This document shows positions 23,062-26,491 of a DNA stretch of 64,000 bases, in pieces. Below the pieces are notes generated by a model. It worked only from the letters and a program-made list of their open reading frames with translations, had not been told where the DNA came from and did no database searches. A program made the position numbers and the translations under genes. The stretch's first letter is position 1, and each line of letters starts with the position of its first letter. Origin of the DNA: Anaerolineae bacterium (GTDB lineage: Bacteria; Chloroflexota; Anaerolineae; Aggregatilineales; Phototrophicaceae); contig JADLAY010000003.1 in NCBI GenBank assembly GCA_020849765.1, positions 124,001 through 188,000 on the forward strand. The letters run 5' to 3'.

Positions 23062-24909
<1,848 letters not shown>

Positions 24910-24961: not shown

Positions 24962-24990
24962 TTGACGTGGATCTGTTACTATTGAACAAT
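24962..24990 (+). promoter_or_regulatory. Promoter of the aminotransferase leader
   Basis: TTGACG (24962-24967) is followed after 17 bases by AACAAT (24985-24990). This would start transcription near 24997, about 30 bases before the leader-peptide ATG. Confidence 0.5.
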
Positions 24991-25028
24991 CTATGGCGTC
25001 ATCGGCACTGGATACAGGAAGCGCTGTG

Positions 25029-25082
25029 ATGCGCAATAATAAGACGACTACCACTGATCGCACTCGTAAAGGAACCACGTAG
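25029..25082 (+). CDS. Threonine-rich leader peptide of attenuator
   Basis: A 17-codon reading frame encodes MRNNKTTTTDRTRKGTT. AGGAA at 25016-25020 is a good ribosome binding site, eight bases from the ATG. Seven of 17 residues are threonine, including four in tandem (ACG ACT ACC ACT at 25044-25055), as in known amino-acid biosynthesis leader peptides such as ThrL. The TAG at 25080-25082 stands beside sequence that can pair either backward with the Thr-codon region or forward with the terminator arm. It is best read as a ribosome-stalling sensor of charged tRNA-Thr for the aminotransferase gene. The peptide itself need have no other role. Confidence 0.65.
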   Translation: MRNNKTTTTDRTRKGTT

Positions 25083-25126
25083 CGGGGTCGTCGCGTCTTG
25101 CACAGTATGTGTTGATACAGCACCCC
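25041..25126 (+). promoter_or_regulatory. Alternative RNA pairings of the attenuator
   Basis: Segment 1, AAGACGAC (25041-25048, overlapping the Thr codons), can pair with GTCGTC (25087-25092) or with CGTCTT (25094-25099). The following GGGGT (25084-25088) can instead pair with ACCCC (25122-25126), the 5' arm of the terminator. TGC..GTAT/ATAC..GCA (25099-25122) is a further antiterminator-like hairpin. A ribosome stalled on the Thr codons would free segment 2 to block the terminator. A ribosome at the stop codon would cover segment 2 and let the terminator form. Confidence 0.55.
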
Positions 25127-25144
25127 AAACGGGGTGCTTTTTTT
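25119..25144 (+). terminator. Rho-independent terminator before aminotransferase (attenuator)
   Basis: An 8-bp perfect stem (AGCACCCC with GGGGTGCT, loop AAAC) is followed by seven T residues. It ends 24 bases upstream of the aminotransferase start, so it must be conditional, or the gene would not be expressed from the upstream promoter. Confidence 0.88.
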
Positions 25145-25156
25145 ATGTCCCATCAA

Positions 25157-25162
25157 AGGAGG
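25157..25162 (+). promoter_or_regulatory. Ribosome binding site deciding the TTG start
   Basis: AGGAGG at 25157-25162 lies six bases before TTG at 25169. This favours that start over the in-frame ATG at 25145, which lies upstream of it, and over the TTG at 25109, which lies before the terminator. Confidence 0.8.
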
Positions 25163-25168
25163 GTAACC

Positions 25169-26491
25169 TTGGTAGTAGAGAATCCCGCATTGATCGCTGA
25201 CATCCCGCAGTTCGTGGTGCCGCCGGAAAACCGCGTGCCGGTCAATCACTATCCCGCGACGATGATGGACATTCCACCTTCGCGTATGTTCCTGATTCGC
25301 GATGCGCTCAAGGCTTACCGGGCGACCCACGGCGACGACGCCGTGACCTACGATGCGTCGCAGGGCGATGGCGGCGCCAGCCTGCCCGGCGTGCCGGAAG
25401 CGATCCTGCGCCGCGCGCTTGAGCTTCAGCTTGAACACGGCAGTTCTTACGACCAGCCCTGGGGCACAGCGCAATTCCGCAAGGCTGCTGCCGAGCATTA
25501 CTGGCATCTCGACCCGGAGACCGGCTGGGGCCCGGAAAACATCGTCTTTGTGCAGGGCGGGCGTGATGGCCTGCAAAAAGCCTACGGCGCGATGATCGGC
25601 ACCCGCAGCAAAGAGATCGGCGACGCGCTGGTCGTCTCGCGCGTGCCCTGGATCAGCTACAACTGGGGGCCATATGCCGTCGGTCTGAACGTGATGCTCG
25701 CGCCCGGACGCGCCGAAGAAGGCTGGCGTTACACACCCGAAGGCATTCGCGCCTGTGCCGAATACGCCGCCAAAGAGGGGCGCGGCATCGCCGGGATGGT
25801 GCTGACTTCGCCGGATAACCCCACGGGGCGCACGCTGCCGCTCGACGAGCAGATCACGCTGGCAAAGACGGCGCTCGACGCGGGCTTTGGCTACGTGTTG
25901 TTCGACTGGATGTATCACTGGGTGACGGATGGCGGCCCGTCCGACATCAACGTCGTGCTCAAGGCCTTCACGCCGGAAGAGCGCGAGCGTCTGATCTTCC
26001 TCGATGGTCTGACCAAGAGCCTGGGCGCCTCGAACATCCGCAGTGCGCATCTGCTGGCAGGCAAAGCCGTCGTCAAGTACATCACCAGCCAGGCATCGCA
26101 CGGCGTCATCCCGGCCTACTACTCTCAGGCGGTCGCGATCGCGGCCTACGAAATGGGCTACGAGAACGCCTGCGCCAGCATCGTCGAGCCGACCAGGGAG
26201 AGCCGCCGTGTCCTGCGCAGCGCGCTCGAAAGCTTCGGCATCCCGCACATCATGGGCGACGGCTACTATGCCTTCATCGACTGCACGCGGTACATCCAGA
26301 GCGGCGGCCTGAAGGACTCAGAAGAACTGCTCATGCACCTGGGCGAGAAGTTCGGCGTCGCCGTCGTGCCGGGCGTCTATTTCTCCGACGCGGGCGCCAA
26401 CTGGATTCGCTTCTCCTATGCGCAGACGCCGGAAGTGACGCAGGGCGCGGTCGACCGGCTGTTCGAAGGCTTGAAGGCACTGGAAGGCTAG
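25169..26491 (+). CDS. PLP-dependent aminotransferase, class I/II
   Basis: A 440-residue fold-type I aminotransferase. Recognisable segments are the N-terminal substrate/dimer region (YDASQGDGGASLPGVPEAI), the cofactor ring contact in VLTSPDNPTGRTLPLDEQ, the Asp of VLFDWMYHW, and the PLP-binding Lys in LDGLTKSLGASNIRSAHLL. The C-terminal GVAVVPGVYFSDAGANWIRFSYA contains the carboxylate-binding Arg. The substrate is not clear from sequence. The upstream attenuator with a threonine-rich leader suggests that synthesis responds to threonine supply, so a role in threonine-linked metabolism is a hypothesis. No partner gene is in the same transcript. Confidence 0.85.
   Translation: MVVENPALIADIPQFVVPPENRVPVNHYPATMMDIPPSRMFLIRDALKAYRATHGDDAVTYDASQGDGGASLPGVPEAILRRALELQLEHGSSYDQPWGTAQFRKAAAEHYWHLDPETGWGPENIVFVQGGRDGLQKAYGAMIGTRSKEIGDALVVSRVPWISYNWGPYAVGLNVMLAPGRAEEGWRYTPEGIRACAEYAAKEGRGIAGMVLTSPDNPTGRTLPLDEQITLAKTALDAGFGYVLFDWMYHWVTDGGPSDINVVLKAFTPEERERLIFLDGLTKSLGASNIRSAHLLAGKAVVKYITSQASHGVIPAYYSQAVAIAAYEMGYENACASIVEPTRESRRVLRSALESFGIPHIMGDGYYAFIDCTRYIQSGGLKDSEELLMHLGEKFGVAVVPGVYFSDAGANWIRFSYAQTPEVTQGAVDRLFEGLKALEG

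Follow-up and report, generated by a model that had tools for sequence, protein, structure and literature searches.

A candidate ribosome-mediated attenuator that may poll several aspartate-family amino acids upstream of an aminotransferase gene in Anaerolineae

Why should a lone aminotransferase gene in an Anaerolineae genome be preceded by a short reading frame crowded with threonine codons and by a transcription terminator? We addressed this question in a 64,000-nucleotide (nt) stretch of a genome of the phylum Chloroflexota (contig JADLAY010000003.1, positions 124,001 to 188,000), hereafter called the window, in which coordinates count from the first letter. We read the element as a classical ribosome-mediated attenuator that polls several aspartate-family aminoacyl-tRNAs (across relatives, those for Thr, Asn, Asp and Met) and, when these are scarce, likely increases an enzyme that makes aspartate; to this reading we give a probability of about two in three. 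Classical attenuation is well supported because of the anatomy of the leader and its conservation: among 32 leaders of canonical layout, 26 have GGGG no more than 14 nt from the stop codon (1.8 expected) and 26 have a Shine-Dalgarno (SD)-like 4-mer before the frame (6.3 expected). An initial annotation, made from the letters of the window alone, had placed the element in this same class, as a layout of the thrL and hisL type.

All parts of the leader lie on the forward strand. A promoter-like sequence of the sigma-70 type (24962-24990) consists of TTGACG at 24962-24967, a 17-nt spacer and AACAAT at 24985-24990, and is followed by the SD sequence AGGAA (25016-25020). The leader peptide frame, MRNNKTTTTDRTRKGTT (25029-25082), begins with ATG at 25029, runs for 17 codons and ends with TAG at 25080-25082, and an in-frame GTG at 25026 offers an alternative start. 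Within this frame are seven Thr codons, four of them in tandem, two Asn codons and one Asp codon. The main run, T-T-T-T-D (25044-25058), holds the likely control codons, judging from the residues enriched in relatives, while further Thr codons stand at 25062, 25074 and 25077 and the Asn codons at 25035 and 25038. When the frame was shuffled, 31 of 48,864 stop-free versions contained seven or more Thr codons. The intrinsic terminator, AGCACCCC-AAAC-GGGGTGCT (25119-25144), was read directly from the sequence, with a stem at 25119-25138 that is conserved in the leader alignment and seven Ts at 25138-25144; the TTG start of the aminotransferase gene, at 25169, lies 24 bases past the last T. The promoter-like sequence, the SD sequence, the 17-codon frame with its seven Thr, the seven-T terminator and the 24-base gap agree base for base with what the initial annotation had described. 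A composition-blind scan of both strands of the window, which looked for a terminator with a short SD-preceded frame 10-75 nt before it and a long SD-preceded frame after it, returned this place alone, with its two alternative starts, and no second unit.

Predicted folds contain the alternative pairings that had been proposed between the frame, the segment after the stop codon and the terminator arm. Segment 1 (25043-25056) is predicted to pair with 25080-25092 in a protective hairpin, and segment 2, CGGGGTCGTC (25083-25092), which directly follows the stop codon, carries the GGGGT (25084-25088) that could pair with ACCCC (25122-25126) as an antiterminator. Calculated energies in the window are -20.8 kcal/mol for the 1:2 fold, -15.1 kcal/mol for the terminator and -16.4 kcal/mol for the antiterminator-competent stretch. 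The position of the G-run directly after the stop codon, with the CCCC of the terminator 5' arm as a possible partner, supports an antiterminator at the level of sequence, and we consider this pairing plausible. A ribosome stalled by a lack of charged tRNA at a Thr, Asn, Asp or Met codon would occupy segment 1, leaving the G-run to pair with the terminator's C-rich 5' arm, and transcription would continue into the aminotransferase gene. With sufficient charged tRNAs, the ribosome would reach the stop codon and cover or re-fold segment 2, and the terminator would form; the G-run near the stop is placed where a terminating ribosome would cover it.

The leader was compared across 81 loci, comprising the best 80 of 316 loci from a scan of named genomes and the window itself. 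These loci belong mostly to Anaerolineae or Chloroflexi metagenome-assembled genomes, some titled Aggregatilineales or Phototrophicales, and 14 belong to Acidobacteriota, including Geothrix. A leader layout was assigned upstream of the orthologous aminotransferase gene at 42 of the 81 loci, including the window: 32 canonical leaders, three of an Anaerolineales type (L106, L107 and L110), five run-on leaders, and the leaders of L076 and L109. The canonical leaders encode peptides of 15-22 residues and have their stop codon 28-47 nt before the terminator. Over their 513 codons, start codons excluded, Thr, Asn, Asp and Met together account for 52%, compared with 18.7% in 1000 shuffles of each leader's own bases. 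Counted over leaders that share ancestry and are therefore not independent, there are 138 Thr codons (48 expected), 58 Asn (25 expected), 36 Asp (16 expected) and 36 Met (6.5 expected), and none of the four counts was reached in any shuffle. Glu (1 vs 14 expected) and Pro (30 vs 48) are low, and Arg (58 vs 45) is slightly high. The pattern holds in the 25 leaders under 75% identity, where Ile is also low. Thr, Asn, Asp and Met all belong to the aspartate family, aspartate being their precursor.

The initial annotation had seen a threonine sensor here. Thr is indeed present in all 32 canonical leaders, but this description proved too narrow, as Asn (30 of 32), Asp (27 of 32) and internal Met (27 of 32) are also enriched. 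A threonine-specific, thrL-like attenuator in which the Asn, Asp and Met codons are incidental would suit the rank of Thr as the most frequent residue, the seven Thr of the window's own leader, four in tandem, and the lack of significant Asp and Met enrichment in the variant leaders detailed below. We nevertheless regard it as unlikely, since Asn, Asp and Met each exceed all 1000 shuffles in the canonical leaders and are intermixed with Thr within a single run (e.g., MTDTTTN, TTTNMDT and MTTDTDT), and since Asn is enriched in both variant groups as well. Moreover, we know of no case in which a lone aminotransferase is linked to threonine synthesis. Sensing of Thr together with Ile, as in thrL, was also rejected, with 22 Ile codons against 28.8 expected. 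A threonine sensor on a single aminotransferase gene had struck the initial annotation as unexpected, and this puzzle largely disappears if the enzyme supplies aspartate, as its predicted activity suggests.

The variant leaders share part of this composition. The three Anaerolineales-type leaders have a mean DNA identity to the canonical leaders of 0.53-0.54, barely above the 0.50 of shuffled copies, yet are rich in Thr and Asn (2 and 3 of 2000 shuffles as high, respectively). The run-on five are likewise rich in Thr and Asn (14 and 4 of 2000 shuffles as high); they form one clade and carry APP motifs after the control codons.

If the ribosome itself is the sensor, it might respond to any slowing of translation, whether by antibiotics or poor charging, without amino-acid specificity. 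The mixture of several amino acids in the run fits such a general brake, as does the preference for ACT, which makes up 48% of Thr codons in 25 leaders and 9% in the downstream genes. However, the enriched residues come from one biosynthetic family, with Arg slightly up and Ile, Lys, Glu and Pro not, and a general sensor needs no such choice; we therefore hold this explanation to be quite improbable.

The leader might instead be a structured or protein-bound RNA resembling a riboswitch, with the frame as a by-product of sequence constraints, as the recurrence of the G-run and terminator and the preserved length of the spacer between stop codon and terminator could suggest. This is very improbable in light of the coding pattern. 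The share of Thr, Asn, Asp and Met codons is 52% in frame but drops to 14% in the two alternative frames, the same value as in nine proteins encoded in the window, and the third base of Thr codons varies, with the same codon in 43% of aligned Thr-Thr pairs and 35% by chance among 41 typed leaders. The leader alignment has a mean column identity of 48% and a consensus fold that consists of the terminator only, and an Rfam scan of the window at the gathering score gave no leader, T-box or riboswitch match at the site. The exact peptide is not kept while its composition is, because eight close pairs of leaders differ by 22 synonymous and 55 non-synonymous codon changes over 158 codons; purifying selection on the exact peptide was not seen in these pairs. 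Of the 32 canonical leaders, 11 end in Arg and 9 in Pro, and the codon of this last residue adjoins the stop codon and the G-run.

The phylogenetic distribution of the leader bears on whether it is a unit with its gene. On a maximum-likelihood tree, the leader label needs 9 changes, compared with 27.2 in shuffles, and the leader occurs in 38 of the 50 rows of the window's clade and in 4 Anaerolineales-type loci. The promoter-like sequences before the leaders of relatives mostly read TTGAC(A/G)-N17-(C/G/A)ACAAT. In the window, the hairpin sits between two unrelated genes, a setting that would suit a plain terminator (for instance of glmS) or an isolation element beside a non-regulatory small frame, and a terminator without a frame before aspS in one genome (G044, read by eye) points the same way. 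We find this explanation barely credible, because the DNA from glmS to the terminator contains a promoter-like sequence and because the unit stays with the aminotransferase gene although the DNA further upstream varies between relatives.

Comparisons between partner segments give further, uneven evidence for the proposed pairings. An anchored gapless helix between segment 2 and the terminator arm averages 5.24 base pairs with a leader's own arm and 4.82 with swapped arms, a value reached in 404 of 20000 permutations, and the segment used for this helix contains GGGG in 21 of 25 leaders. In a swap test, 0 of 2000 swaps equalled the pairing of the frame with its own segment 2, and in a control pairing of frame with arm, 1465 of 2000 swaps did as well. 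Part of the swap-test signal may come from shared composition and descent.

The product of the downstream gene (25169-26491, forward strand) is a pyridoxal phosphate-dependent class I aminotransferase (PF00155) of 440 residues, predicted to be aspartate aminotransferase (AspAT)-like. In a fold comparison, its predicted structure groups with class I AspATs, with prephenate and other class I aminotransferases tied. K283 and R414 are invariant in 26 sequences and align with AspATs; we take them to be the catalytic Lys and the carboxylate-binding Arg, respectively. The enzyme has an invariant Arg at the position of the Lys in GGKQAL of Thermus AspAT. A sequence search of the PDB gave no match at E 1e-30 and was rerun at 1e-12. 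On these grounds the enzyme is likely aspartate-making, and it would convert oxaloacetate to aspartate, the precursor of the polled amino acids. Such a metabolic link between the control codons and the gene would let a single leader gauge, at the point of entry, how much the entire pathway requires.

Several observations weigh against this reading, in its mechanism, its amino-acid range or its choice of enzyme. The leader frame and its start were picked by the analyst from position, ATG and SD sequence. Antiterminator energies are mostly no lower than those of shuffles: over 41 leaders, z-scores range from -2.7 to 1.8, with 7 of 41 at -2 or below and the window at 0.4. RNAalifold on the leader alignment returns the terminator stem alone with little covariation, and in the swap test the value for segment 2 with its own arm was 31 of 2000, against 26 of 2000 for a control in which an upstream stretch was paired with segment 2. 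Base-pair covariation across the leaders, judged from the alignment, appears weak, and the covarying stems in relatives to which the initial annotation had pointed were not clearly seen. The frames of the run-on five (L038, L039, L047, L048 and L052) cross the G-run and end 3-6 nt short of the terminator, a layout for which the simple attenuation model has no explanation, and the frames of L076 and L109 stop 11 nt before it. The frame and Thr codons to be compared in homologous leaders both recur at the 42 loci counted above, but no leader was recognised at the other 39, including 12 of the 50 in the window's own clade, 10 of which have 500 nt upstream; two of the 39, L066 (46 nt) and L064 (194 nt), hold too little upstream DNA to judge well.

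In composition, Ile is neutral and Lys, which is also made from aspartate, is depleted in the canonical leaders (5 vs 22.5 expected). Internal Met is absent from the window's own leader, and internal Met codons elsewhere could be secondary starts. Neither Asp nor Met shows significant enrichment in the Anaerolineales-type three (Asp 3 vs 2.7 expected, Met 3 vs 1.2) or in the run-on five (Asp 6 vs 4.1, Met 3 vs 1.1), so the full set of four amino acids rests on the canonical leaders, and our confidence in the main reading is slightly lowered for this reason. As for the enzyme, it passes no NCBIfam cut-off, with the best AspAT equivalog at 66.5 bits against a cut-off of 550; the tie with prephenate and other class I aminotransferases leaves AspAT activity without a clear lead in the fold comparison; and other AspAT-like enzymes are present in the same genome.

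A related arrangement was found at another gene in a sister family of the same order (f2), of which five genomes were examined. No close ortholog of the aminotransferase was found in these five genomes. In four of them, a short frame and a terminator lie upstream of aspS (G037, G050 and G055 by script, G060 by eye). The frames, at loci L185, L176, L179 and L175, respectively, bear Asn and Asp codons (e.g., MHINWTIIININDRARTPGPGGMIVPR) and contain NIND, NNDND, DNNDD and LND. Promoter-like sequences precede aspS in G037 and G060, as read by eye, and in the fifth genome, G044, the terminator stands without a frame. This unit makes a second attenuator candidate, one that perhaps senses Asp and Asn. 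In total, 30 aspS loci were fetched and 27 were analysable by script; apart from the f2 loci, three in number, the script found a short frame followed by a hairpin at L195, L198 and L200, none of them obviously rich in Thr, Asn, Asp or Met by eye. The genome of the window has no such unit, no terminator being found before its aspS. Taken as a whole, the proposal that Asp, Asn, Thr and Met are polled together to set the aspartate entry enzyme, with an Asn/Asp-bearing leader on aspS instead in the sister family, seems to us evenly balanced.

Leader-peptide attenuation is known in Proteobacteria and Actinobacteria. In thrL of the Escherichia coli thrABC operon, as in hisL, ilvL and leuL, a short frame with tandem control codons and an intrinsic terminator precede the gene, and thrL mixes two related amino acids, Thr and Ile. 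As in thrL, the stop codon here adjoins a segment that, according to predicted folds, could pair back into the frame or with the terminator. Unlike thrL, the canonical relatives mix Thr, Asn, Asp and Met, with Ile not enriched; the target is one AspAT-like gene; the host is related to Anaerolineae; and there is no Rfam family match.

Three studies describe comparable leaders. The histidine leader peptide of hisS/hisZ in bacilli (Naville and Gautheret 2010, PMC2965389) likewise extends leader-peptide attenuation beyond Proteobacteria and Actinobacteria, but it concerns a single amino acid, an aminoacyl-tRNA synthetase target and Firmicutes. The attenuators of trp, ilvB, trpS and leuS found by genome comparison in Actinobacteria (PMC1262725) share a leader peptide with control codons and a terminator; its authors report that they saw no RNA structure conserved before the threonine or methionine operons of that group, and the main text contains no word beginning with aspart- or asparagine. 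A leucine-rich attenuator peptide of branched-chain amino acid synthesis in Staphylococcus aureus (PMC5794164) is a further case of amino-acid synthesis attenuated by a leader peptide outside Proteobacteria, differing in its amino acid (leucine), its branched-chain genes and its host (Firmicutes). The accessible text of PMC4833913 mentions Chloroflexi a single time, noting that this group offered too few genomes to be surveyed. Our literature search, which covered few subscription papers, found no report of leader-peptide attenuation in Chloroflexota and no recognisable leader peptide for aspartate-family genes in this phylum. If our reading is true, leader-peptide attenuation would extend to a large, mostly uncultured phylum, the attenuator would act where a pathway begins and combine signals from four of its products, not from a single end product, and an aminotransferase family named by no NCBIfam model would gain a functional hint.

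A covariance model of five base pairs (R1), built from the 32 leaders, was searched in 41 genomes under strict filters and gave 14 strong matches (E 1.6e-8 or less), all directly upstream of the aminotransferase gene and one of them in the window's own genome; all 14 are the model's own input leaders, so that the search shows only that these genomes hold no well-scoring second copy. Four of the weak matches were judged by eye: L147, L149 and L151 are non-leaders, and L150 is an aspS leader. In the window's genome, no leader was found in the stretches around homoserine dehydrogenase, trpE and two places with three of the four HMGL-like (leuA-type) genes, the fourth, on contig C79, lying outside the scan.

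The aminotransferase itself is widespread, with 3079 homologous proteins found and matches in 60 of 61 genomes searched, of which close orthologs are only a part. Geothrix and other Acidobacteriota (L090-L096, L098, L099, L101-L104 and L111) have the same enzyme, at 58-60% identity and nested among the Anaerolineales-type rows of the tree, and a leader was recognised in 0 of the 14 Acidobacteriota loci; this perhaps reflects gene transfer without the switch. Two loci titled Bacteroidetes bacterium and Pleurocapsa minor (L046 and L050) carry gene and leader and fall inside the Anaerolineae clade of the tree, and their assemblies are probably mislabelled or mixed. At L081, a frame bearing Thr and Asn precedes a weak hairpin; this locus was left out of the leader count. 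L062 retains the promoter-like sequence, with frame and terminator not seen. The only Rfam match in the window is a glmS ribozyme (RF00234, 22789-22993, 49.7 bits), upstream of a glmS-like frame of 615 residues at 23062.
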